Made by a program: the position numbers and the translations under genes
Origin: a virus
IMG/VR virus record: IMGVR_UViG_3300031251_000021
Span: 1-62,140 of that record
Direction: 5' to 3' (one strand)
Length of the DNA stretch: 62,140 nt
Part shown: in pieces, positions 341 to 62,140 of the stretch
How the letters are laid out: each line of letters opens with the position of its first letter
Numbering within the stretch: the stretch's first letter is position 1
The notes under the pieces: model-generated
Database searches by the model: none
The model's input: the letters and a program-made list of their open reading frames with translations, nothing else
What the model was told of the DNA's origin: nothing

Positions 341-643
341 ATGACGAGATACGAAGGTAACAGAGAGCCCGTCATTATCCGCGCTAGGGACGCGGGAGTT
401 CATTTCGGAGAGTTGGTCGCCTACGAAGAGCGTATGGTATGGTTGGAGGGGGCCATACGGCTATGGAAGTGGAAGGCTGCGGGGGGAATTGCACTAAGTG
501 GCGTTGCGACTGCCGGGATTGACCCAAGAGCGTCCAAGCTAGATGCCCTCCTACCAAGAATGGTCATCACCGACGCCTGTGAGCTTTTATTTTGCACCGA
601 GGAAGCTGCGGCTAGCATTCGGAGTGCGCTATGGGCAAAATAA
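341..643 (+). CDS. Hypothetical protein (100 aa)
   Basis: A 100-residue protein starting MTRYEGNREPVIIRARDAG. An upstream in-frame start at 290 exists, but it would overlap the preceding gene by 38 bases and the ATG at 341 has a purine-rich stretch before it. The stop at 641-643 overlaps the start of the next gene at 631, suggesting translational coupling. Function unknown. Confidence 0.6.
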   Translation: MTRYEGNREPVIIRARDAGVHFGELVAYEERMVWLEGAIRLWKWKAAGGIALSGVATAGIDPRASKLDALLPRMVITDACELLFCTEEAAASIRSALWAK

Positions 644-978
644 TAACCCTGCATTCTGATGGCGATGGCTATGGCAACGGCCATGGCGATGGCTATGGCG
701 ATGGCTATGGCGATGGCAATGGCGATGGCTATGGCAACGGCGATGGCGCTGGCGATGGCGCTGGCAAGGGCGATGGCTATGGCAACGGCAATGGCGATGG
801 CTATGGCAACGGCCATGGCGCTGGCTATGGCGATGGCGATGGCTATGGCGATGGCTATGGCGATGGCGCTGGCGATGGCTATGGCGATGGCGCTGGCAAT
901 GGCGCTGGCCATGGCGCTGGCTATGGCGATGGCGATGGCGCTGGCGCTGGCGCTGGCGATGGCGCTGGCGCTGGCTAA
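631..978 (+). CDS. Glycine/aspartate/tyrosine repeat protein
   Basis: A 115-residue protein. After a short leader (MGKIITLHSDGD) it is entirely built of two-residue steps in which every other residue is Gly and the alternate one is Asp, Tyr, Asn, Ala or His. The DNA is a degenerate tandem repeat of 6-base units (GGCGAT, GGCTAT, GGCAAC, GGCGCT), so unit gain or loss keeps the frame. Proteins of this composition occur in other phages without known function. Its start overlaps the preceding gene by 13 bases. The strict alternation could give an extended or beta-type fold; nothing in it suggests an enzyme. Confidence 0.6.
   Translation: MGKIITLHSDGDGYGNGHGDGYGDGYGDGNGDGYGNGDGAGDGAGKGDGYGNGNGDGYGNGHGAGYGDGDGYGDGYGDGAGDGYGDGAGNGAGHGAGYGDGDGAGAGAGDGAGAG
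660..975 (+). repeat. Tandem 6-bp unit repeat array (GGCNNN)n
   Basis: About fifty consecutive 6-base units of the form GGC-GAT/TAT/AAC/AAT/GCT encode the Gly-X protein. The other frames read as Met-Ala or Ala-Ile repeats and are by-products. Such an array is prone to slippage, always in multiples of two codons. Confidence 0.85.
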
Positions 979-19710: not shown

Positions 19711-22700
19711 TCACTGCACATTAAACGTATCGCGATACTTCTGCAAGACAGCTCGGTTCTGCGCAGTGACCGGCATCCCGAGGATGTTGTTGCCCGACGC
19801 CGACGCCTTCTCTCGCTTCGATGCTGCGTGATCGAGCATCTTGTGCGTGATGCGAGCCTCGGCGGGCTGTGTGTCGTTGTAGGCGCTGATCCGCGCCATG
19901 GCGCGCGCCCGGTCGCCGGGGGTCCGCGCTCCAGCCCAATCGTTGATGAGCTTATGGTTCTGTTCGCCTTGTGTGCGGATCGTCTTCTTCGCCGCCCAGC
20001 TCGCCTCGTCGTATTTCGCCACCGACGCCGGCTTGAACCCGAGCGCCTGCGTGAACATCTGCGCAGCGCCCATGGGCTCCATCCCACCCCCACGCGCGCT
20101 AGGCTTGCCATCAGACCCCAGGCGGTAGGCTTTCGCCAGATCGTCGAACTGTTTGATGGGGATGAGGTGCTCCGCGGCCTTCCCAAAGTCGCCATTCATG
20201 AGCGCCTGCCCACCAGTGAAGGCGTCCTGCGCCATCGACGCGGGAGCGCCGCCCACCGTTTGCAGTATCCAGTTCATGCTGTCTTCGGGCTTGTTCGACT
20301 TCGGCTCGCCGAACGTCAGCAGCGAGTTCAGGCCGAGCCTATGGTGCACGTCCACACTGAATGGGCCGAGCGCCCGAGAGAGCCCGTGCATGACGACTTC
20401 TGCCACCTGCGGGCCAAACATCTCGGTGGCCTGCTCCTGCGCCTTCTCTTCGATGTCGGCCCAGCTCGTATTCGTAACGCCCAGGGCGTTCGCGAGCATG
20501 ATCGGGGCCTTGATTACCTCCATGGGTAAGCCGAGCGCTCCAGCCATGGCGGCATGGGTGGTGATGACGCCAGCGAACGCCCTCACCGCTTCGGCACGCA
20601 CCTTGGGGTCCTCGTTCTTGAACATATTGTAGAGGCTCTTCCCGAGCAGGCTGTAGACCATCTGCGGGAACTGCTTGAACTGTAGGAAGGGCCGCAGCGC
20701 CGGATTGCGGAACGCGGGGGCGGCGTTGGTCGGAGAGTAGAGCCCCTGCGTGTTGGCAAGCGTGTCCTTCGCATAGCGCACGGCCTTATCGAAGTCGCCC
20801 CCGTTGCGCTCATGCTCCAGGCGGAATGCGGCGACCGCCTCCGCGACGCGGTTGATGCTCTCCGTCGCGCCTGTGATCTCGCGCACCGCGGTATCGACGC
20901 GGGAGAGCCCGCGATCCGCCGCCGTCCCGAACTCGTTGAGGCGCGTGGCCTCGAAGCCGGCATCGGGGTGGATGTGTCCAGTCTCCATCAGCGCGTCGAG
21001 CATCTTACCGATCTTCGCGCCATCCGCAGACTTCGCAAGGCGTTGCTTGAAACCATCGACGAAGTTCGTGGGCTCCGCCGCAGGGTTCCGGGCAGTGCGC
21101 ACCGCACCCTTAGCCCCTTCCTTTAGAGCGTCCATCGCACCCATGTCGCCATAGGCGCGAGCGAGCGAGGCGTAGGCTTTCGCGAAGCCGTGGCGCGAGC
21201 CGAGCACCGGAGCCGAGATCATCCCCGGATGCGTCATGTGCAGGAGGATGTGGGCGCTGCTCGCCATGCGCATGAGGAACGAGGCGGTCATGAGCCGCGA
21301 CCACACCGGGGCCATGCGCCCGGTATATTCGGGCGAGCCGAAGCCGTAGAGCCGCCCCTCCATCTCTTGCAGGACGCGCTGCCGCTCTATCGTGGTGTCC
21401 TGATACTCATTGTCCTTGATGTGTTCGCGCATGTCCTTGAGCGCGCCGTCCACGGTAGAGCGGTAGTCTTGCCTGGACAGGTAACGCGAGGCGCTGTTCG
21501 AATAGTCGATGGTGTTGCGCACAACGTCGCGTGACGCGCCCGCCACGTTCCGCCTGGGGAGCCTTCGCTGCTCGACACGCGTGCCGGCCTTCATACCGAT
21601 CGATGCTTCGAGAAGCGAGCGCTCCATGATCCCGCGCTGCTCGGGGCTCAGGTCCTTCCGCTTGCGCAAGTTATCCACAAGTTTTTGTATTTGGGGCGAC
21701 GAGATTTCGTAGTCGAGCTTGTTATTGAGGTCGCGCTTGGTGACCGCCTTGATGTCCTCAAAGCCTCCGTGATCCACAAGCTCCTGACGGCGCGCGTTCG
21801 CCCCCCGCTCTGTCTCGTGCAGCTCCATCAGCTCGCGCTGGACGCGCGTCTGGAATTTCTGGACGGGGCTCCCCGTCGTGCTCTCATTGTCCTTCGTCGT
21901 TTTCGCGCCGGTCTCCGGGTCGTAATAGACGGTCTTGGTGCGCGCCGGCAGGCCGACTTCGCGCGCGAACTTATTCGCCTCCTGGCGCGAGCCGAACTCC
22001 CAAGTGTTCTCGTCGATCTTCTTGCCCCCCGTGGGGGCCTCGACCTTGAACTTCGCACGAACGACGTGCTCTCCCTGGCGCATGAGCGGGAAATATGCGC
22101 CCTTCTTCACCTTCAACTCTTCCGCGTTCTTGATCGCCTTGCCGAGTTCAGGCTTATCGGCGAACAACTTGTCGTCGTCCTCCGTCATCGCATCGTTCAT
22201 GATCCGCTCGGCGAGCGCGCTCTTGCTTACCCCATCAGGTAAGTCGACGGTGCTTAGGACTTGATCGACGTTGGAGCGCGTGATCTTGTCCTGCATCTCC
22301 TTGTAGTAGTCGCGGTCGTTGCGGAACTGGCGCCGGAGATCGCTCGGCAGGCTATCGTAAAGCGCGCTCAGTTCTCTGTGTTTTTGGCGGCTCTGCCACA
22401 CATCCATCGCCGTCTCGTGCTCAGAGTCCCTGCCCTTGGCGAGCTTATTCGCGACATCCTTGCTGGCGCGCAGGTGGGCGTTGGCCGAGCTGTCGAGGTC
22501 CTTGTCGGGGTGCAGGTCGTAGATCGTGCTCTCTTCGCGCAGGCGGGCGTATTCGTCCCACTGCGGGCCTTGGTATTTCTTCGAGAGCGTGAAGTTGTCG
22601 CGCGCGATCTTGTCGCCCTCCTCCCGATACTTCCGCATCTTGACGCCCATCTTCTCGATGGTGTCGGTCAGCTTGCGCAGGGGGTTGCTCTCGTCGGCAC

Positions 22701-25700
22701 TACCAAAGAGCCACTCTCGCGCTTGGCGGAGCTGATCGTTCGTCTGGAGCTTCATGCCCCATTCTTTGAGCTTGCCCACGGTCGGGGTGTGTTCGATAGC
22801 GGCGTTCACCACATTACCCATCTGGGTAATCGGCAGCTCGATGCCCGCTCGCGCGGTCTTCTTAGGCTCGTTCGTCGCGTCCGCCGCATCCTCGAACGCG
22901 GGGAGGAACTTGATCGCCTGCTGCCGCGACTGCATCTGCCGCTGGCGCATCGCATATTCGATCTTGTGGCCGGGGCTCTTGTCCCAGCTTGCGCGCTCGC
23001 CAACGGCCATCGCCGCCTCCAGCGCCGAATACTCGTGCGCTTTTAGCCCCAGCATCCGGGAGATCGTGTGCACGACGCCGCCCCAAATGGAGTTCTGCCG
23101 AAACTCGGGGAGGCCCAGCTCGCGCACGAGCCCCTCGGATAGTGGGACTTTCGCCAGAGCGCGCTGGAACACACCATTCGAGAGGGCCTCCGACATGAAT
23201 TCGTGAGCGTCGGTCCAGCCATAGTGGGACCCCGGCGGGCGGGGGGTGAGGAACTGGTCAGAGTAGGGGAGGGCCTCGTCTTTCAGCGCCTCCTTCGCCT
23301 CCGCCATGATCTTCTCAACGTGTCCGCGGATCGTCGCATTGCGCGAGAGAGTGTCTTGGAGCAGTCCGTGCAGACCCTCGTGCAAGAGAATGTGGGGCAG
23401 CGCAGCTTGGGGCGTGTCAGCACTGATGACGATGTGCTTGTAGAGGGGGTCGTGGTAGCCGAAGGGCGGCTTGCGCACGCCTAGGAGGTTCTGCATGTCC
23501 TCCCTGGAGACCACATGCACGGGGTAGTCGCCCAGCGCCGCCTGGACGCGCTCAGAGAGCTTGCGGCTCACAGCGCCCGTCCGCCCCTCACCAACGGGGA
23601 GCCCGCGAAGGAGTTCGGAGAGCGAAGCCGTGTGCGCCGCCTCGGCCTTCCCTTCCGGCCCCAGGACCGTCGCAGGCTCATCGGGTCGCTCCAGAGCCTT
23701 GATGCCCTCGGAGGTAACATCTTTCGGCCCGACTTTCCACGGCTTCGATCCGACCTCCGGCAGGGACTTCTTCCCCGGCTGCCAGGACTTACGCTTCGTT
23801 TCGACCTTGAATGTGCCGGCCTTGTCCTCGCCAGCGGTGACGCGGGTCGATGCAACCTTTTCAACGATGCGCTCGATAGCGGCTTGCCCAGCGGCTCGCT
23901 CGCCCTCCGTCTTCCCCTCCATCGCATAGCGCCGCGCCTTCTCGATACGGGCCAGCGCCTCGGGGCTCAGTAGATCGGGGGCCGACCGCACAGCGGCCTC
24001 AGCAAGGCGCTTCTCGAAGTTATGGAGGACCGTCGCTTCGTTGTGGCTCTCCTCGGCGTGCTCTTTTGCCTCCAGCGCCGCCTCGGGAGTGTTGTGATCG
24101 GCAAGTGCATCCGCGACGTTACCTAGGGGTGCAGATACGTCCCCCTGATCGGTGCGCTTAGCGATATCGCCCTCGGCGCGGCGCTCGCCCTTGACGGCTT
24201 CGACGTTGCCCTCGCGCAGGTCCTTCTCACGCCCGATGAAGCGCTGGAAGTCCGCCCCCTTCTTGACCTTCTTGCCCACGAGTGAGCGGGCCTCCGCGAG
24301 CAGCATGGTCGCCGGGCTGTGGTTCATCAGCTCGTCGAGGTTGTCGCGGATGGTCGCCGGGATTTCGACGCCCTTCTCCTTGGCCGCGTCAACCATGGCT
24401 TGCGCCCGCGCCAGGATCGCCTTGCGTGCGTCATTGGCCCCCTTGGCGCGACCGTCGAAGTAATTCGCTTCGGCGTCGGTCGGGAGGTGCTTCCCATTGA
24501 TGATGTCCTCGGCGGTGGCGTTGTTCTGGGTGCGCGCCGCTTTCTCGTCCTTGTCGCGGTTCTTGCCCTTGGGCTCCTTCGGGGCTGTCTCCTTGTTCGC
24601 CGCGATCTTCTTGTTCCACGCCTTCTGGTTCGTGGCGTCGGCCTTCTTACCTTCTGGGGTAACATCGCGGAGGACTTGCGGCTTGCGCGGCGGCTCCTTG
24701 TCCCCAGGGCCACCAGGGAACGAAGGCTTGGCGGCGGGCTCTTGGGGCGCGGGAGCTTGGGCCTCCTGGCGATCCGCGATTACCTGCGCCGGGCTCTCCA
24801 CCTGCACCGTGTTCTCGGGCGCGGCCTTGTTCGCTTCGAGCGCCTGGGTCTGGTCGGGGGCCGTCCGGTCAGTGCCGGCAGCGGCTTTGACTTCTGTGCC
24901 GTCAGGTGTCCGCTCGGTCACAGCGACAGGGGTCTCCCCCGATGCGGCTCGTTGGACCGCCTCCTCCTGCGTCGTGTCGCCATAACCCAGGAACTCGCCA
25001 ACAGAGCCGTCCTTGATCTTGGCGCGCAGGTCCTTGGGTGAGGTCTGCTCGGGGTCGTAGTCGTAAATATCGCCGCGGATATTCGTCCGCTTCAAGCCCT
25101 CGGGGGGCTTGCTCGGCTTGTCGGTGCCCTTCGGATAGACGACGGCGGGGCGCTTCTGCTCCTGCGTCGCCTGCTGCTGCGCCTGGATCGTCTCCGGGCT
25201 CTCAGTGACGGGCGTGATCTCGGGCGTCGCCTCCGGGGGAGCCTGGGGTGTTACCTGTGCAGGTTGCCCGGCGGGCGGCGGCGTATCGCCGGGCGGCGGG
25301 TTGCGCGCTTCGACCGCATCGGCCTGGGCCGGGTCGAGCCCGACTTCCGGGACCACGGTGGGCGCATCGGGCCTGGGTTTCGGTATGGCCTCGGGTGCCG
25401 CGTGCATGAGCCCATGCGCCGCGCCGGGGAGGCCCGTGAGTGCGCCCGCCTCCAGGGTGCGGTTCAGCCATCCGCGGGCGTCGAACTCCTTCTGGGTGCC
25501 TGCCTCTAGCCCGGCCTGCTGCTCTGCATAGTCACCGACGCCGGTCTGGAGCGCGCCGGCACCGCCAGCCTCCCCAAGGCCGAACGCCGCGCGACGGAGA
25601 GCCGTGCCCGTGAGCACGCTGCCGCGCGCCATCATGCCGCCGAGGCCAGCTCCACCCGCGACGCCGCCGGCGAGAGCTGTGAGCGCCAGCCGCCCATCCC

Positions 25701-26280
25701 CATCCGTGACGAAGTGCGTCAGTTCGCGCCGCGCATCTTCCTCAGTCATGCGGTCGCGCAGGCCGTTGTAGAGCGCGCTGTCCTTTCGCAGGTCGTCGTC
25801 GGACGCGTCTGCGATCTTCGAAGAAACCGCGTCGACATACTGCGTGGCGCTCAGTCCGGCATTGGAGGCTATCGCCATACCCGTGCCAGCCGCCGCACCG
25901 AACGCCTCTGCCACGATGCCGGCCGGCAGAGCCGAGGCAATGAGCGCAGGCGACATCTGTGCGCCCTTGAGGCCGAGCGCGCGACCGGGATGCTCCCAGA
26001 AGTCCGAGCCCGTGATGTTCGAGTTCATGGACTTCTGCGCCGCGGGCGTCATGCTCGCGATGGTGTCCTGCTCGTCGCGATGCTGGAGGGCCGCGCGACC
26101 GCGGATCAGGTCCCCCGTCTCGGGCTCTCCGACGTTGTCCGCGATATAGGCGATGCCGCTCTGCGCCGCGCCGCTTAGCCCTTGCAGCGCGCCGTAGGCT
26201 GCCTTGGGGTAATCACTCCACTCCGTATCGTCGCTCTGGTTCGCGCCGGGCTGGTTGAGGTAGCTGATATCGACGGCCAT
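19711..26280 (-). CDS. Giant polyvalent ejection-type protein with metallopeptidase motif
   Basis: A 2189-residue protein, the largest in the genome. The first 300 residues contain several glycine/alanine-rich hydrophobic stretches. A Pro/Gln/Glu-rich disordered region spans about 300-560. A gluzincin-like site reads LLHEGLHGLL (H967, E968, H971) with a downstream DAHEFMSEAL that could give the third ligand. The rest is mostly helical and charged. This architecture resembles phage polyvalent or internal virion proteins that are ejected into the cell and carry enzymatic passengers. It ends the leftward virion operon behind two other ejection-type proteins. Seven palindrome copies lie inside. 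Confidence 0.7.
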   Translation of the reverse strand: MAVDISYLNQPGANQSDDTEWSDYPKAAYGALQGLSGAAQSGIAYIADNVGEPETGDLIRGRAALQHRDEQDTIASMTPAAQKSMNSNITGSDFWEHPGRALGLKGAQMSPALIASALPAGIVAEAFGAAAGTGMAIASNAGLSATQYVDAVSSKIADASDDDLRKDSALYNGLRDRMTEEDARRELTHFVTDGDGRLALTALAGGVAGGAGLGGMMARGSVLTGTALRRAAFGLGEAGGAGALQTGVGDYAEQQAGLEAGTQKEFDARGWLNRTLEAGALTGLPGAAHGLMHAAPEAIPKPRPDAPTVVPEVGLDPAQADAVEARNPPPGDTPPPAGQPAQVTPQAPPEATPEITPVTESPETIQAQQQATQEQKRPAVVYPKGTDKPSKPPEGLKRTNIRGDIYDYDPEQTSPKDLRAKIKDGSVGEFLGYGDTTQEEAVQRAASGETPVAVTERTPDGTEVKAAAGTDRTAPDQTQALEANKAAPENTVQVESPAQVIADRQEAQAPAPQEPAAKPSFPGGPGDKEPPRKPQVLRDVTPEGKKADATNQKAWNKKIAANKETAPKEPKGKNRDKDEKAARTQNNATAEDIINGKHLPTDAEANYFDGRAKGANDARKAILARAQAMVDAAKEKGVEIPATIRDNLDELMNHSPATMLLAEARSLVGKKVKKGADFQRFIGREKDLREGNVEAVKGERRAEGDIAKRTDQGDVSAPLGNVADALADHNTPEAALEAKEHAEESHNEATVLHNFEKRLAEAAVRSAPDLLSPEALARIEKARRYAMEGKTEGERAAGQAAIERIVEKVASTRVTAGEDKAGTFKVETKRKSWQPGKKSLPEVGSKPWKVGPKDVTSEGIKALERPDEPATVLGPEGKAEAAHTASLSELLRGLPVGEGRTGAVSRKLSERVQAALGDYPVHVVSREDMQNLLGVRKPPFGYHDPLYKHIVISADTPQAALPHILLHEGLHGLLQDTLSRNATIRGHVEKIMAEAKEALKDEALPYSDQFLTPRPPGSHYGWTDAHEFMSEALSNGVFQRALAKVPLSEGLVRELGLPEFRQNSIWGGVVHTISRMLGLKAHEYSALEAAMAVGERASWDKSPGHKIEYAMRQRQMQSRQQAIKFLPAFEDAADATNEPKKTARAGIELPITQMGNVVNAAIEHTPTVGKLKEWGMKLQTNDQLRQAREWLFGSADESNPLRKLTDTIEKMGVKMRKYREEGDKIARDNFTLSKKYQGPQWDEYARLREESTIYDLHPDKDLDSSANAHLRASKDVANKLAKGRDSEHETAMDVWQSRQKHRELSALYDSLPSDLRRQFRNDRDYYKEMQDKITRSNVDQVLSTVDLPDGVSKSALAERIMNDAMTEDDDKLFADKPELGKAIKNAEELKVKKGAYFPLMRQGEHVVRAKFKVEAPTGGKKIDENTWEFGSRQEANKFAREVGLPARTKTVYYDPETGAKTTKDNESTTGSPVQKFQTRVQRELMELHETERGANARRQELVDHGGFEDIKAVTKRDLNNKLDYEISSPQIQKLVDNLRKRKDLSPEQRGIMERSLLEASIGMKAGTRVEQRRLPRRNVAGASRDVVRNTIDYSNSASRYLSRQDYRSTVDGALKDMREHIKDNEYQDTTIERQRVLQEMEGRLYGFGSPEYTGRMAPVWSRLMTASFLMRMASSAHILLHMTHPGMISAPVLGSRHGFAKAYASLARAYGDMGAMDALKEGAKGAVRTARNPAAEPTNFVDGFKQRLAKSADGAKIGKMLDALMETGHIHPDAGFEATRLNEFGTAADRGLSRVDTAVREITGATESINRVAEAVAAFRLEHERNGGDFDKAVRYAKDTLANTQGLYSPTNAAPAFRNPALRPFLQFKQFPQMVYSLLGKSLYNMFKNEDPKVRAEAVRAFAGVITTHAAMAGALGLPMEVIKAPIMLANALGVTNTSWADIEEKAQEQATEMFGPQVAEVVMHGLSRALGPFSVDVHHRLGLNSLLTFGEPKSNKPEDSMNWILQTVGGAPASMAQDAFTGGQALMNGDFGKAAEHLIPIKQFDDLAKAYRLGSDGKPSARGGGMEPMGAAQMFTQALGFKPASVAKYDEASWAAKKTIRTQGEQNHKLINDWAGARTPGDRARAMARISAYNDTQPAEARITHKMLDHAASKREKASASGNNILGMPVTAQNRAVLQKYRDTFNVQ

Positions 26281-51747: not shown

Positions 51748-52233
51748 ATGGCACTTCCCACCGCCTTCGATGATCTCGACAACACGATACGCGAACTGGC
51801 CTACCAGCTCGCAACGGGCATCCACTCCGAAGACGCTCTGCGCCAGCGGTTCAATCTGACCGTTGTGCAGTATGAGGCGGTCTGCCGGCACCCGAAGTTC
51901 CACAAGCTGCTCCACGCCGCGCGCGTCGAGTGGGATGGGGCGCAGAACACAGTGCTGCGCGCCGAACTCAAGGGCGCAATCGCCGCGGAAGAGGCGATCC
52001 CGCACGTCTACGCGATGATCACGGACAAGACTGTGGCCGGCACGGCGCGCGTCGAAGCGTTCAAGGCGCTCTCCAAGATCGGGCGTGTGGGCGAGCGCGC
52101 CGAGAAGGGCGGAGCTGGCGCGGGTGAGGTGTTCAAGATCACGATCAACCTCGGTGAGGACAGGAAACTGGAGATCGTGAAGGAGTTACCCGTTCAGGTA
52201 ATCGAACACGACGCGGATTATGCCGATGCCTGA
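51748..52233 (+). CDS. terS: Terminase small subunit (putative)
   Basis: A 161-residue protein. The N-terminus resembles a helix-turn-helix (DALRQRFNLTVVQYEAVCRHPKFHKLL); the middle is helical and the C-terminus beta-like with VFKITINLGED. Position directly before the large subunit, with an 8- to 14-base overlap, supports this. It should recognise packaging DNA. Palindrome copy 52185-52202 is inside. Confidence 0.7.
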   Translation: MALPTAFDDLDNTIRELAYQLATGIHSEDALRQRFNLTVVQYEAVCRHPKFHKLLHAARVEWDGAQNTVLRAELKGAIAAEEAIPHVYAMITDKTVAGTARVEAFKALSKIGRVGERAEKGGAGAGEVFKITINLGEDRKLEIVKELPVQVIEHDADYADA

Positions 52234-53692
52234 GATTAATTACACAGCGCCGCCGACATGCGCTCGATTTATGAAGTCCGACAGCTTCGGACGGCTCATT
52301 GCCGGCCCCGTGGGCTCGGGAAAGACGACAGCGTGCATTCTGGAGCTGCTTCGCCGCGCTTGCCAGCAAGATATTGGCCCAGACGGCTTCCGTCACACCC
52401 GTTTCGCCATCACCCGACAGACGCTTTCGCAGTTGATGATGACTGTGAAGAAGGACATCGATGATTGGCTGCGCGATGGGGCGGAATTTAAGGTCTCGGA
52501 GAAGACTTTCTACGTCTCGATTGGCGATGTGCGCTCGGAATGGGTGCTGATCCCCCTGGAGACGCCCGAAGATCAGCAAAGACTGCTCTCAATGCAGCTC
52601 ACGGGCGCGTGGATGTCCGAATGTATCGAGCAAGATGTCAATCTGGTGGCTCCGCTGGCCGCGCGCACCGGGCGATACCCCAACAACGACATAGTGGGCC
52701 TCTGCACGCACAAATTTCTGATCGCGGATACCAATATGCCGACCGAAGGGAGCCCCTGGCACACCTTCATGGAGAGCCCGCCGGCCTCCTGGCAGATTTT
52801 CCGGCAGCCTTCGGGGCTCTGTGTGCAGGCAGAGAACCTGGATTGGCTCAATCAGACCCCCGAAACACGCGCGCTGCCCGTAGGCTCCCCGGTTCGGCTC
52901 GCGCAGGGGCGGAAATACTATGAACTCGCCGCCGAAAACACCAATCCCGATTGGGTGCGCCGCTATGTCCACGCCGAATACGGTAATGACCCCTCGGGAA
53001 CAGCCGTTTTCCGAGCCACTTTCAAGCGCAGCTTTCACGTTCAGCCCTCTATCGAGGTGTTACCTGGAAGGTTACTTGTGGTGGGGCAGGATTTTGGGCG
53101 TGATCCTTGCTCAATCATCACTCAATTGGACGCTCGGGGACGACTTTTAGTCCTTGAAGAAGTCATGGCGGAGGATTGTGGGCTCGAACTCCACATCCAG
53201 AACGCTCTCAGGCCCGCGCTTTATTCGGAGCGATACTCGGGCTGCGCCGTAATCATCGTCGGCGATCCTGCCGGGAACGCGAAAGACAGCATCTATGAAA
53301 CGAACTCGTTCGACATCCTGCACGAGAATGGCTTCGCGGCCATCCCAGCCCCCACAAACGAGATCGGCAAGCGATTGGCCGCAGTGGATCGCTTCCTGCT
53401 GGAGCATCGGCAGGGGGAGCCGGCGCTGGTATTTGATGAGGAGCATTGTCCTATGCTCGTGCGCGCTATGGATGGCGGCTATCGCTACGCCAAGACCCGC
53501 CAAGGCGTCCGCAAACCAACCCCCGACAAGACAAATGGCCCATGGTCGCACATTGCGGATGCCCTGCAATATGCCTGCCTGGGTAACTCAGGGGAGATGC
53601 GTGGCAAGCTGGTAGGGTGGATGACGCGCACCGGGCGCAATCGCTCGCGGGCTCGGGCGAGGCCACAGATCAGCGCGAGGGGCTGGACCTAG
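52226..53692 (+). CDS. terL: Terminase large subunit
   Basis: A 488-residue packaging motor. Walker A is AGPVGSGKT (K33 from this start); the nuclease domain contains VVGQDFGRDPCS (first Asp), VIIVGDPAG and SHIADALQYA (last Asp). A second ATG at 52220 is equally possible. It lacks a helicase-like insertion and fits the short-tailed phage type. A palindrome variant with a 5-base centre is at 53059. Confidence 0.85.
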   Translation: MPEINYTAPPTCARFMKSDSFGRLIAGPVGSGKTTACILELLRRACQQDIGPDGFRHTRFAITRQTLSQLMMTVKKDIDDWLRDGAEFKVSEKTFYVSIGDVRSEWVLIPLETPEDQQRLLSMQLTGAWMSECIEQDVNLVAPLAARTGRYPNNDIVGLCTHKFLIADTNMPTEGSPWHTFMESPPASWQIFRQPSGLCVQAENLDWLNQTPETRALPVGSPVRLAQGRKYYELAAENTNPDWVRRYVHAEYGNDPSGTAVFRATFKRSFHVQPSIEVLPGRLLVVGQDFGRDPCSIITQLDARGRLLVLEEVMAEDCGLELHIQNALRPALYSERYSGCAVIIVGDPAGNAKDSIYETNSFDILHENGFAAIPAPTNEIGKRLAAVDRFLLEHRQGEPALVFDEEHCPMLVRAMDGGYRYAKTRQGVRKPTPDKTNGPWSHIADALQYACLGNSGEMRGKLVGWMTRTGRNRSRARARPQISARGWT

Positions 53693-54055: not shown

Positions 54056-54817
54056 TTAGAAATGGTAGTTCGCACCGATGCGAACGAGAGCGCCATTCAC
54101 GCCTTGAGCGCCCGGAAGCTGGCCGGCTTTCCAGAAGTTCAGGTCCGTGCCCTGGAGGTTGTAGTAGAGCGCTTCCAACTTCACGCCGACCTTCGGAGCG
54201 ATGCTCGGGAGCGGGATCGCCTCGACGCCACCGCCGGCGACCCAGCCAAAGCGCACGTTGCGCGTCGAGGACTCGACTGCTGAGATCACGAGCGGAGCCG
54301 CCTTGGAGACGCTGACGCCGTAGAGCGACGCCTGCTGCGCCAGACCGCCCGCCGCCAGACCGCCGGTGCCGTAGACCAGCACGTTCGTCCAGGGCGACCA
54401 GCCGATGCGGCCACGCGCCGTGCCGAGCCAGCTCAACTGACCAGCCGTCGCGACCGACACGTTCGAGGTCGTCGTCGCGCTCACCGAAGCTCCGACCGGC
54501 TTCGCAATCGAGGACTGCGCGAGCACTCCATCGAGGTCGCCCTCGACGCCGACCAGGAAGTGATCGATCATCAGGTTGTAGCCGGCCTGCGCGCCAGCGG
54601 CGAAGCCCGAAGGCTGCGAGACCCAGCCCGTGTTCAAACCGCCGTAGAAGCCGTTGAACGGGGAGATCGCCGGAGCCGCGGGGACAGCAATCGGGGGGAG
54701 GCGGCTGGGAAGGTCAGCGGCGAAAGCGCTCTTGGTGCTCAGGCCGAGGAAGAACAGCAGCGCTCCGAGAACAATGCCGGCAGCGAGGCTGCGCAGATTG
54801 ACGTTCAGACTATTCAT
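54056..54817 (-). CDS. Outer-membrane beta-barrel protein, Omp25/31-like moron
   Basis: A 253-residue protein with a long Sec signal peptide ending SAFA-ADLPSR, the start of mature Rhizobiales Omp25/31-type proteins. WTGFYGG is here FNGFYGGLNTGWVSQ. The body has alternating beta strands with Gly and aromatic residues, and the last residue is Phe (GANYHF), the signal for outer-membrane insertion. The ribosome binding site AAGGAGACACAC is canonical, unlike most genes here. It has its own promoter and terminator, so it is a moron expressed in the lysogen. It might alter surface receptors and block superinfection; this is inference. Confidence 0.85.
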   Translation of the reverse strand: MNSLNVNLRSLAAGIVLGALLFFLGLSTKSAFAADLPSRLPPIAVPAAPAISPFNGFYGGLNTGWVSQPSGFAAGAQAGYNLMIDHFLVGVEGDLDGVLAQSSIAKPVGASVSATTTSNVSVATAGQLSWLGTARGRIGWSPWTNVLVYGTGGLAAGGLAQQASLYGVSVSKAAPLVISAVESSTRNVRFGWVAGGGVEAIPLPSIAPKVGVKLEALYYNLQGTDLNFWKAGQLPGAQGVNGALVRIGANYHF

Positions 54818-54842: not shown

Positions 54843-54871
54843 GTTGTAACCTACGTAGGTAACTAGGTCAA
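54843..54871 (-). promoter_or_regulatory. Moron promoter with palindrome operator in the spacer
   Basis: Read on the minus strand: TTGACC (-35, 54871-54866), exactly 17 bases, then TACAAC (-10, 54848-54843). The 18-bp palindrome at 54846-54863 fills most of the spacer and enters the -10. This is the usual geometry of a repressor operator and is the best local evidence that the repeated palindrome is a protein-binding DNA site. Confidence 0.7.
54846..54863. repeat. Copy of the 18-bp palindrome (extended symmetry)
   Basis: GTAACC-TACGTA-GGTAAC. The centre TACGTA is itself palindromic, so symmetry runs over sixteen of the eighteen bases. Confidence 0.85.
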
Positions 54872-54881
54872 GTGTGTTATA

Positions 54882-55055
54882 TTAGTCACACCCAGCGACG
54901 ACGGATACACGGCTCGGGCATGCGTCCTGATAGGGCTCCTGCGCACGTTCGGCGACGAAGGCCACGCAGGTCAGCACGACAATCGCCACGGCAAGTGCGC
55001 CGAATGTGAGCCAGAGCAGCTCCCATATCTCCTGGACGGCTTCCCAAGTGCTCAT
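54882..55055 (-). CDS. Small membrane protein (57 aa)
   Basis: A 57-residue protein with one membrane segment (residues about 12-34, LLWLTFGALAVAIVVLTCVAFVA) and a short exported or cytoplasmic tail with two cysteines. The start overlaps the sponge gene's stop (ATGA), so the two are coupled. Function unknown; it might assist the sponge or act in superinfection exclusion. Confidence 0.55.
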   Translation of the reverse strand: MSTWEAVQEIWELLWLTFGALAVAIVVLTCVAFVAERAQEPYQDACPSRVSVVAGCD

Positions 55056-55279
55056 ACCTCATCTCTCCAGGTGATCGCCTTCACGGCCCACATCTGAGCC
55101 GTCTGGGCTTCGGTGATGGCGGTGGAATAATATCGATAGCTCCCCGCGGTCACGCCCTGCTGGGTCCGCGCGTTGTGCAGGTGGTCGATGATATCGGCGT
55201 AGAGCCTCTTCACCTTCGCCACTTCATCGTCGCCGGACGGATTGAAGCTCAGTCCGACAGCTTTCTCACCGAACGTCAT
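55052..55279 (-). CDS. acb2: Acb2/Tad1-family cyclic-nucleotide sponge (anti-CBASS/Thoeris)
   Basis: A 75-residue protein. GLSFNPSGDDEVAKVK near the N-terminus and AITEAQTAQMWAVKAITW at the C-terminus match the small hairpin family that includes Acb2, which binds cyclic di- and trinucleotides and disarms CBASS, with reported binding of Thoeris signals too. The fold is two helices with a loop. It lies in the lysogeny block between excisionase-side genes and the moron, so it could protect the phage on entry or the lysogen. The palindrome 55280-55297 touches its start. Ligand specificity cannot be read from the sequence. Confidence 0.75.
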   Translation of the reverse strand: MTFGEKAVGLSFNPSGDDEVAKVKRLYADIIDHLHNARTQQGVTAGSYRYYSTAITEAQTAQMWAVKAITWRDEV

Positions 55280-55308
55280 GTTACCCTCCTAGGTATCTCT
55301 ACGTAGTG

Positions 55309-55605
55309 CTAGTGCCGCACCTGCATGCACGGGGAGACCAGATATGCCATCAGCCCGCCATCCATCGAGACAATCGCGAATGTCGCTTTCTCTTTCGGGA
55401 CCTGGACGCCGTGCATCGTAACCCATCTCTCGACCGCCACCATGTCTCCACTCAACATGAGGATGAACTCCCCTTCGAGGGAGATGTAGTGCGGCCTGCG
55501 GGTGATGTCCCCAAAGTCGTGCGCTCGATATATCCGCTCCGCGGCTTCGGGGGACACCTCGAAGTCGTCTTCGGTCTCTTCGCTCAAAACGGCGGGGTCG
55601 CCCAT
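55309..55605 (-). CDS. Hypothetical protein (98 aa)
   Basis: A 98-residue acidic protein starting MGDPAVLSEETEDDFEV with a beta-rich C-terminal half (ISLEGEFILMLSGDMVAVERW). The start overlaps the excisionase stop by one base. It sits between the excisionase and the Acb2-like gene, a place where phages often keep anti-defence genes, but there is no family evidence. Confidence 0.55.
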   Translation of the reverse strand: MGDPAVLSEETEDDFEVSPEAAERIYRAHDFGDITRRPHYISLEGEFILMLSGDMVAVERWVTMHGVQVPKEKATFAIVSMDGGLMAYLVSPCMQVRH

Positions 55606-55901
55606 CACGCGTCTCCCAACGTCTTCGACTCGCGCCTATCGAGCATCCAAATATGCACGTCGGCCATGAGGTAATAGGTGAGGCGTCCGACGCGGATGAA
55701 CTGCGGCCCCTCGCCGGTCTTGCGCCAATCGCGCAGTGTCCGCTCCGCGACTTCAAGCATCAGCGACAACTCTAGCTCGCTAATGACGCCGAGCACTTCG
55801 CGTAGCATCCGTCCTCTGTTTCGCCCGAACGTATTCACCGGCTCACTGCCCGCCGCATCAGTCACCGCTGCCTCCCTATCGTCGAGCTGAAGCATACACA
55901 T
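55605..55901 (-). CDS. Excisionase / MerR-type helix-turn-helix protein
   Basis: A 98-residue protein whose second half (ELSLMLEVAERTLRDWRKTGEGPQFIRVGRLTYYLMADVHIWML) is the AlpA/excisionase-type winged helix-turn-helix. Directly downstream of the integrase it is the natural Xis, directing excision by bending the attachment DNA. The N-terminal 40 residues look disordered. Confidence 0.75.
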   Translation of the reverse strand: MCMLQLDDREAAVTDAAGSEPVNTFGRNRGRMLREVLGVISELELSLMLEVAERTLRDWRKTGEGPQFIRVGRLTYYLMADVHIWMLDRRESKTLGDA

Positions 55902-55912
55902 CCAAAGTTACC

Positions 55913-55954
55913 TTGCAAGTTATTTATATGTTACGTAAGGACAATAACTTGCAA
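55913..55954. repeat. Perfect 12-bp inverted repeat at the integrase-excisionase junction
   Basis: TTGCAAGTTATT (55913-55924) and its exact reverse complement (55943-55954) flank 18 bases. It covers the last integrase codons and adjoins a degenerate 18-bp palindrome at 55907. It may be an operator or a hairpin that limits int-xis read-through; there is no T-tract. Confidence 0.55.
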
Positions 55955-57255
55955 TAATATCGTGCGAGCAACTCCATCGCATCACGATGTTCTTTCTGGT
56001 AGCGAGACTTGTTGTAGACACTGGCGATCCGGCTGTGCGCCGTCGTGTGTCCGAGCACAACTTCAACGATGTGAGGCGCAACCCCACTCCGCCCCAATAT
56101 CGTCGCCGCGGTCCGGCGCAAGTCATGGCGATGCCAGCCGGCAGTGTCAGTGCGCTCGAAGAGTTTCTTCTGGTATCGGTCCCAATTCCCGTTACGCCCC
56201 GCGAGCCTCCCATCCCACAACCTAACACCCTGACACGCTCTCCCCTCTGTGTGCTCGCGCACATCCTGCTCCCGAACCAAACCTAACACCCTAACAGCCT
56301 CGGAACTGAGCGGGACCACATGCGCTCGCTTCTGCTTCGTGCGCTCTCTCGGGATCGTCCATAGCGCGGCCTCCCCACCCTCTCCGTGTGCGCCACCCAG
56401 CGCGAACTCATCCCACCTCGCGCCGCATATCTCTTCTCGCCGGCACGCCGTCAGCAGCATGATGCGCACAGCCGCATCGTGACCTGCGTGGGTAAGTTCC
56501 GTCAGCACTGCTCGCAGCTCGTCGTCGGACAGCACGCGCTCCCGCACGACGTTCGATCTCTTGGGCTGCTCCAGATCACGCGCGTCGAGCGACAAGTATC
56601 CGCGCTTCCTCCCCCACCTCAGAACCGGGCGAACGTATCGGACGCAAGCCGCGGCAGAGGATCGCGATGGGTGTGCATCGATGGTGCGCTGCAAAGTGGG
56701 CAGCGTCAGTCGGGCGAGTGGCGTGGCTAGGAGGGCTGCGAGCACATGGCGGATTCGCTTGTCAGCGTCATACCATGAAGGTTGTAACGATCCATTCGTG
56801 CTACCATAGGTTGCAACTAATTCAGACAGGGTTAGGGGGCTCCCTGATGAGCTGTCGCTCGGAGAGCTACTAGGGTAGCTCTTAGCTTCATCTCGCTTGT
56901 GGGCGGCTAGTCTCCGCGCCACGGCAAGGGTGATTTGGGGGTAGGGGCCGATTTCATAGCGTCGCCGGGGCTGGCCGGGCGCGGTGCGAACTTGCAAGGT
57001 CCAGAGGGTAGAGGTCGGACCTGCGCGCAGAACGAGACCTGGACAAGCTCCATCCCGGAGTTCGAGGCGCTGGGCCGGCAGTCGAGTGCGGATGGCGGCG
57101 TTGATTTCGGCAATGGTGAGCGGCGGCAGTGTCTTGGGCAATGGGGTCGGACCGGCTGGGGGCCAAAATCGGGGGTGCTGGGGGCCAAAGCGTCGTGGCG
57201 GCTCGTGGTAGGGAGGCGGCGGGCGATTGTCAAGAGGGCGACTAAAATAACACAT
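55924..57255 (-). CDS. int: Tyrosine integrase
   Basis: A 443-residue tyrosine recombinase. An N-terminal arm-binding region of the DUF4102 type (LTIAEINAAIR...LELRDGACPGLVLR) is followed by a core-binding domain and the catalytic domain with ACRREE, HRHDLRRTAATILG, LGHTT and the nucleophile Tyr in SVYNKSRY. A longer ORF reaches 57351, but its extra N-terminus is translated through the tRNA-like attachment site and looks spurious, so I chose the ATG at 57255. It inserts the phage into a host tRNA gene. Confidence 0.85.
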   Translation of the reverse strand: MCYFSRPLDNRPPPPYHEPPRRFGPQHPRFWPPAGPTPLPKTLPPLTIAEINAAIRTRLPAQRLELRDGACPGLVLRAGPTSTLWTLQVRTAPGQPRRRYEIGPYPQITLAVARRLAAHKRDEAKSYPSSSPSDSSSGSPLTLSELVATYGSTNGSLQPSWYDADKRIRHVLAALLATPLARLTLPTLQRTIDAHPSRSSAAACVRYVRPVLRWGRKRGYLSLDARDLEQPKRSNVVRERVLSDDELRAVLTELTHAGHDAAVRIMLLTACRREEICGARWDEFALGGAHGEGGEAALWTIPRERTKQKRAHVVPLSSEAVRVLGLVREQDVREHTEGRACQGVRLWDGRLAGRNGNWDRYQKKLFERTDTAGWHRHDLRRTAATILGRSGVAPHIVEVVLGHTTAHSRIASVYNKSRYQKEHRDAMELLARYYCKLLSLRNI

Positions 57256-57317
57256 TACAGTAGGGTTGCAATTGGGTAACGGTTGGTCTCTGGGGGCTGG
57301 GATTTTTCGGACGATAA

Positions 57318-57358
57318 CTTCTAAGCAGTAGGTCGTGGGTTCGAGCCCCACCGGAGTC
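57318..57358 (+). other. attP: attP core: 3' half of tRNA-Arg(UCU)
   Basis: From the anticodon loop onward the sequence is tRNA: CTTCTAA (anticodon TCT), GCAGT, AGGTC, T-stem GTGGG, loop TTCGAGC, CCCAC, then CGGAGTC as the acceptor strand. Bases upstream of the loop do not pair with GCAGT, so the phage carries only the 3' half and identity probably begins at the anticodon loop, as in many tRNA-integrating phages. It lies 63 bases from the integrase ATG. Confidence 0.8.
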
Positions 57359-57869
57359 TCTTGAGATTGTTGGGGTTATGGGTTGGCAGGGTGTTAGGTT
57401 GTGAGGTTGGGGGCCAAATTGGGGGCCAACGGACAAGTGTTATGCAAGTGTAATACTTCGTCCTTTCTCCCAAAAATATTTCCAACTTCCCTAAGAGAGG
57501 GGCGGGCCTGGGGTGGCCGGCCTGTCCATATAGGGGGGCGGGGGCCGGGGGCTACCTCTCAAGGTAACACTCTCCCCCTCCCTAGTCTGTCAACCGGGAC
57601 TTCCCCGCCACTGACTAGGGTCTCCCTGGCCCGAATAGCTCCCCGATTGAGCGCAGGGAACGAATGTCACCGTTAGACGGTCGGACCGCGACTTGGCCAG
57701 GCGATAGCAAGCCTGGGGTCACCCCGGAGCAGGGGCCAAGCGACGCCAACCTATAACGCACCATGCGCCAACCAGAGCGCTAGCCTTGTTACCGGGACGG
57801 GTAACACGGTGACACTTGCGAATAGATGCGGGGAGAGCAAAAGCCGCGTCGAATAAGCAGGGTTGCGTC
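57359..57869. other. Non-coding attachment/leader region
   Basis: No convincing gene. It holds a GTGTTAGGTTGTG repeat (57391), two palindrome copies (57551 and 57788, the latter with perfect arms), a G-rich run near 57535 and small hairpins such as AGGC/GCCT near 57700. A frame of 91 codons from 57401 has no ribosome binding site and a random-looking product. Confidence 0.5.
57788..57805. repeat. 18-bp palindrome, perfect arms, in the non-coding leader
   Basis: GTTACC-GGGACG-GGTAAC lies about 180 bases from any start codon, so it has no translational role there. Confidence 0.85.
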
Positions 57870-61987: not shown

Positions 61988-62140
61988 ATGACACCGGAGC
62001 CCGACGAGCCCCGCCGCGACGAGGGCATGAAGTTCATGAACTGGCTTGCCGTCCTGAGCGCCGACAAGGCCACGAGTGACGCGGACCCGTTTCAGCCCAA
62101 GTGGATGACGCCCGAGCAGTATGCCAGGAGCGTGCGCCTA
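61988..62140 (+). CDS. Hypothetical protein, N-terminal part (continues at window start)
   Basis: The first 51 codons of the 69-residue protein whose end lies at 2-184. The ATG follows GGGGGTAACACC from the palindrome at 61967. Function unknown. Confidence 0.75.
   Translation, partial: MTPEPDEPRRDEGMKFMNWLAVLSADKATSDADPFQPKWMTPEQYARSVRL
62014..62140. repeat. Right copy of 127-bp terminal direct repeat
   Basis: Identical to bases 1-127. One copy should be removed to obtain the 62,013-bp circle. Confidence 0.9.

Follow-up and report, generated by a model that had tools for sequence, protein, structure and literature searches.

The window (the whole 62,140-nucleotide stretch of viral DNA analyzed here) codes for a 75-residue protein that is in good probability a phage-made sponge of cyclic-nucleotide immune signals of the Acb2/Vs.4 type, hexameric by analogy, as judged from its sequence and a structural model. 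The protein joins a known sponge family and falls within a widespread branch of it. Sponges with the Acb2/Tad1 hairpin enable phages to survive the CBASS and Thoeris defenses. In the structural model, the window protein is a helical hairpin preceded by a short helix at the N terminus. By analogy, a conserved face of alanines would join its copies into a hexamer, and cyclic-nucleotide signals (CBASS di- or trinucleotides, or possibly related ones) would be held in pockets that the N-terminal loop (FNPSG), together with K24 and the final part of the second helix (Q62, K67, and T70), may form. A captured signal would be unable to switch on the host suicide effectors, and the phage cycle could be completed. 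Production of the sponge probably takes place on infection or induction and is kept low in the lysogen.

Family membership and relatives

The reading frame begins with ATG and has SFNPSGD at residues 11 to 17 and MWAVKA at residues 63 to 68, two motifs that an earlier note made from the DNA letters had named in this 75-residue protein. The note assigned the protein to the Acb2/Tad1 hairpin family and suggested a profile search as a check, and the assignment is borne out: PF24729 matches with 34.1 bits (33.1 in the genome search) against a curated Pfam cutoff of 27 bits, all 70 aligned relatives match it at an E value of ≤0.1, PHROG 717 matches with an E value of 1.2e-5, and the top matches of the structural model among the viral models of BFVD are named Acb2/Tad1 hairpin. 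PHROG 717 is the family to which Jenson et al. 2023 (PMC10097602) assign Vs.4 of phage T4, a cGAMP sponge. When a profile of the 70 relatives is compared with the PDB, 7uq2 (Vs.4 with cGAMP) is recovered at an E value of 0.005, with MWACRAV aligned to MWAVKAI; the sole better row is 7mcd, a designed repeat protein, whose score is the sum of four short matches, none passing alone. Profile-profile comparisons of the subfamily are weak, both with Vs.4 (probability 39%, 26 columns) and with the hairpin type of the sister phages described below, and single-sequence searches of the PDB and of NCBIfam with the window protein give no match.

Two closely named identities were discarded, that of Tad1 because 75 residues leave no room for its N-terminal antiparallel β-sheet (and the model has no strand), and that of Tad2 because the window protein has no match to PF11195 (Tad2-like), Tad2 being seen only as a neighbor of relatives. 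The sole PADLOC row, PycTM at an E value of 0.011, is weak and was treated as a chance match.

Relatives with identities of up to 71% are present in 158 phage records, 288 IMG/VR stretches (80 of which were kept), and 16 bacterial contigs, and with these relatives and a PF24729 match above the curated cutoff, the reading frame is a real gene and not a chance one. Members of the SFNPSGD...MWAVKA subfamily (37 to 71% identity) include those of phages EcP1, Pmp11, PS3, and Flavobacterium FCV-1 and of many IMG/VR contigs, and the subfamily extends over phages and prophages of Proteobacteria, Bacteroidota, Acidobacteriota, Actinomycetota, and Patescibacteria, while its sequence varies less between phyla than would be usual for a gene in an arms race, a point against the sponge reading. 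The reading of both motifs as family marks at their usual places stands within this subfamily, but SFNPSGD is absent from Vs.4 (GYKPHTEE) and from the sister-phage type (FEYLKPT), whereas MWAVKA is the counterpart of MWACRA in Vs.4. Judged by these alignments, SFNPSGD is the marker of a separate, large subfamily and not a signature of the characterized sponge Vs.4. No binding test on the SFNPSGD branch was found in the open papers searched. Also against the sponge reading, just one of the 15 bacterial genomes that encode a relative has a SMODS-type CD-NTase (PF18144), in a search with a single model that is narrower than a full CBASS search.

Predicted fold, hexamer face, and pocket

The AlphaFold2 model built with 70 sequences (pLDDT 96) has helices at residues 3 to 8, 18 to 38, and 45 to 70; the latter two form the long antiparallel pair typical of the family, and the first precedes the hairpin as in the Acb2 layout. 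VIA-align gives Z scores of 6.9 for 7uq2, 5.5 for Acb2 (8h2j), and 5.5 for Tad1 (7uav), with unrelated structures reaching 7.1. The fold alone does not decide the identity of the protein, because unrelated hairpins score equally high, and a Foldseek search of the PDB returns nothing at an E value of ≤0.001, as expected for a bare hairpin.

In Vs.4, the contacts with cGAMP are Y8, H11, K23, R79, and F82, of which Y8 and F82 are tested stacking residues; S74N disturbs this contact, and the hexamer is held by L29, A66, A73, and A77. We transferred these sites by a gapless mapping in two blocks, offset by +1 in the first and by −12 in the second, that agrees with the HMMER alignment to 7uq2 and with the first aligned pair of VIA-align. 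The hexamer sites fall on I30, A54, A61, and A65, the three alanines being Ala in 93 to 96% of the 70 sequences, and the ligand sites, including S74, fall on columns that are invariant among the 70 aligned relatives, as is N13. Only K23 is retained among the ligand sites (as K24), R79 is conservatively replaced by K67, and Y8 and F82 are replaced; in Flavobacterium phage FCV-1, the position of T70 (F82 in Vs.4) is occupied by Phe in a distant relative. The mean conservation of nine mapped sites, the three alanines and the six ligand positions, is matched by 2 in 100,000 random column choices. Among 1,458 slid mappings, ours comes 2nd for these nine sites; for the ligand positions alone its rank is 1 of 918. 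The conserved sites point to a likely hexameric nucleotide sponge. They make the hexamer a fairly strong prediction but do not predict the ligand, and with the pocket residues changed it would be unsafe to assume 3′,3′-cGAMP.

The pocket-position signature is nearly constant in the subfamily and unlike that of T4 Vs.4, and Acb2 has been described as relatively rare and limited to certain phage groups (PMC11722364). We tentatively suggest, as a possibility somewhat short of even, that the SFNPSGD subfamily is a distinct and widespread branch in which the hexamer is kept and the pocket rebuilt (FN...K...Q..K..T), capturing an immune signal other than those bound by Vs.4 and Acb2, perhaps a signal shared by many phyla. 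If true, a branch this common, with a pocket of its own, would widen the counter-defense range, and one small protein suffices to test it.

The genes around relatives of the sponge gene bear on its role. A Tad2-like gene (PF11195, up to 87.6 bits) adjoins it in two records (L044 and L093), and in L034 and L040, which are near-copies of each other, the two genes are ∼0.7 kb apart, giving three independent loci; Tad2 is present in 3 of 50 whole records, each time within ∼1 kb of the sponge gene, and most relatives are without a recognized anti-defense neighbor. In L078 a second, weaker Acb2/Tad1-hairpin-like protein (positions 2025 to 2225; PF24729 at 19 bits, below the cutoff) is encoded directly after the sponge gene. 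These neighbors support an anti-defense role, as does the different Acb2-type hairpin near the terminase of the sister phages described below.

It is unlikely, in our estimation, that the window protein shares fold and ancestry with the sponges but has lost immune-nucleotide binding, serving instead as a late or lysis-region accessory protein or regulator whose invariant face contacts protein or nucleic acid. The very high constancy across phyla and the replaced stacking residues would fit such a role, as would the relatives encoded beside lysis and terminase genes (between the lysis genes and terS in Pmp11, and between Rz1 and terS in Aaphi23), but in other phages the gene is placed elsewhere and its genome position varies, as for an accessory gene. 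Loss of binding also sits poorly with the counterparts of the Vs.4 hexamer alanines and ligand positions being among the most constant sites, and with Tad2 and the second hairpin protein as neighbors.

The phage, its gene neighborhood, and a genome-wide palindrome

An exact 127-base terminal direct repeat (positions 1 to 127 and 62014 to 62140) makes it probable that this IMG/VR virus record is complete, with a circular genome of ∼62.0 kb. The large terminase subunit was used for placing the phage and finding sister phages, and its closest matches among named phages are Rhizobium phage RHph_TM3_14A and its kin, to which the portal (57% identity) and capsid (66%) are also related. The earlier note took the phage to be temperate and of Rhizobiales type, and the data agree on both counts, with an integrase gene adjoining a tRNA-Arg 3′-half, a terminase about 50% identical to those of Rhizobium phages, and matches of a nearby reading frame to Rhizobiales outer membrane proteins (Table 1). 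The tRNA-Arg 3′-half is likely the attachment site, as read from its letters; ARAGORN finds no whole tRNA there. Elsewhere in the genome, a 115-codon reading frame (631 to 978, plus strand) arising from a 12-base tandem array at ∼613 to 1014 codes almost entirely for Gly-X repeats (GDGYGNGHG...), and a 2,189-codon frame (19711 to 26280, minus strand) has a weak match, below the cutoff, to a large-polyvalent-protein-associated domain (LPD39).

Table 1. Features of the window around the predicted sponge gene
Feature	Position	Strand	Basis or remark
Terminase large subunit	52220..53692	+	phrog_2, E 3.9e-20; 49.7% identity to Rhizobium phage RHph_TM3_14A
Outer-membrane β-barrel-like protein, 253 aa, signal peptide	54056..54817	-	tblastn to Rhizobiales outer membrane proteins, 28-36% identity
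57-aa ORF, one hydrophobic segment	54882..55055	-	ATGA overlap with sponge stop
Predicted Acb2/Tad1-hairpin sponge protein, 75 aa	55052..55279	-	PF24729, PHROG 717, AF2 model
Palindrome copy TACCTAGGAGGGTAAC	55281..55296	-	Over sponge Shine-Dalgarno region, directly before ATG
99-aa ORF (GTG)	55309..55608	-	No relatives or family
HTH_17-type, excisionase-like DNA-binding protein, 98 aa	55605..55901	-	HTH_17, E 9.6e-6, just under cutoff; phrog_66, E 4.9e-5
Tyrosine integrase (longest ORF, GTG; start provisional)	55924..57351	-	PF00589, E 3.9e-15; phrog_1, E 5e-37
Candidate attP core, 3′-half of tRNA-Arg(TCT) gene	57310..57359	+	Read from sequence, beside integrase

Reading from the terminase, the order is the outer-membrane-protein-like frame, the 57-codon frame, the sponge gene, the 99-codon frame, the HTH/excisionase-like gene, and the integrase. 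The outer-membrane-protein-like frame is possibly a lysogenic-conversion or superinfection-exclusion gene. Four records akin to the window by terminase (54 to 55% identity) encode another hairpin type of the family, marked by FEYLKPT, 2 to 3 kb beyond the terminase and on the opposite strand; three pass the Pfam cutoff, and two are identical in sequence here. A search of PDB sequences with the sister-phage hairpin gives no match. The window and its sister phages thus have distinct members of the family in broadly the same part of the genome, and the surrounding genes differ, so that one fixed site is not claimed.

The coupling of the sponge gene to a 57-residue membrane protein, which the earlier note had described, is seen in the sequence as a four-base ATGA overlap (start codon at 55055 to 55053, sponge stop at 55054 to 55052) and one hydrophobic segment (mean Kyte-Doolittle value of 2.65 over 19 residues). 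The other neighbor, given there as 98 residues, has 99 from its GTG and 98 from the next ATG, and is distinct from the HTH gene that also codes for 98 residues. The proposal that these two proteins form an anti-defense island with the sponge, acting jointly or against different defenses, is improbable. The ATGA overlap and the shared strand of the three genes, between terminase and integrase, speak for it, but overlapping genes are commonplace in phages, searches with the two neighbors find no relatives and no family match, and neither matches a defense or anti-defense family in Pfam, PHROG, NCBIfam, or PADLOC. A small membrane protein as a fixed sponge partner was likewise dropped, being present in only a few of ∼80 relatives, with a highly variable downstream gene. 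The single-sequence model of the 99-residue protein (pLDDT 41) is unusable. It is scarcely credible that the sponge itself is an unrelated helical hairpin resembling Acb2 by chance. Such hairpins do match many unrelated structures, but here the curated Pfam cutoff is passed, every aligned relative and PHROG 717 match, and functional sites coincide with those of Vs.4.

The palindrome TTACC-N6-GGTAA, with its spacer fixed at six, occurs in the window 24 times exactly, 70 times with ≤1 mismatch, and 87 times with ≤2 (0.0, 0.3, and 9.6 expected, respectively), for example, at 2547, 6250, 6903, 13172, 55281, 59367, and 61608. The copies are found in coding and intergenic DNA, and their spacing is a little more even than chance would give (P = 0.004). 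Many directly precede a start codon and enclose the Shine-Dalgarno region, and others lie upstream of the HTH gene (∼55908) and the outer-membrane-protein-like gene (54847 to 54862). At ≤1 mismatch, 42 sites are present in Rhizobium phage RHph_TM3_14A (control, 7). Comparable arrays in mycobacteriophages are the Cluster A stoperators, the 17-bp palindromes of Cluster O, and the start-associated sequences of Cluster K. We infer that a phage repressor or a similar protein may bind the palindromes and hold the sponge down in a lysogen; with an operator-like copy over its ribosome-binding site, the sponge would probably be expressed on infection or induction, despite the adjoining integrase gene. 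A review describes Acb2 as acting at induction and not in lysogeny maintenance (PMC12043709).

Comparison with characterized sponges

Tad1 (PDB 7UAV, 8SMD, and 8KBF) shares its C-terminal helical hairpin with the window protein (Z scores of 4.6 to 5.5 over 50 to 57 residues), but the window protein is without the N-terminal antiparallel β-sheet, which in Tad1 helps to form the gcADPR pocket (PMC12043709). Acb2 of Pseudomonas phages (PDB 8H2J and 8H2X) is alike in fold (VIA-align Z score of 5.5 over 63 residues, 22% identity), although its sequence is too distant for a direct PDB sequence match. The fullest comparison is with T4 Vs.4/Acb2 (PDB 7UQ2, PHROG 717), from which the window protein differs in its shorter hairpin arms, an overall identity of ∼19 to 23%, the FNPSGD loop in place of YKPHT, and the replacement of Y8, H11, S74, R79, and F82 by G9, F12, Q62, K67, and T70. 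The two proteins are nevertheless alike in their PHROG match, in the two long antiparallel helices after a short N-terminal element, in the hexamer alanines corresponding to A66, A73, and A77, in K23 (K24 in the window protein), and in the M-W-A-x-[KR]-A motif at the C-terminal end.
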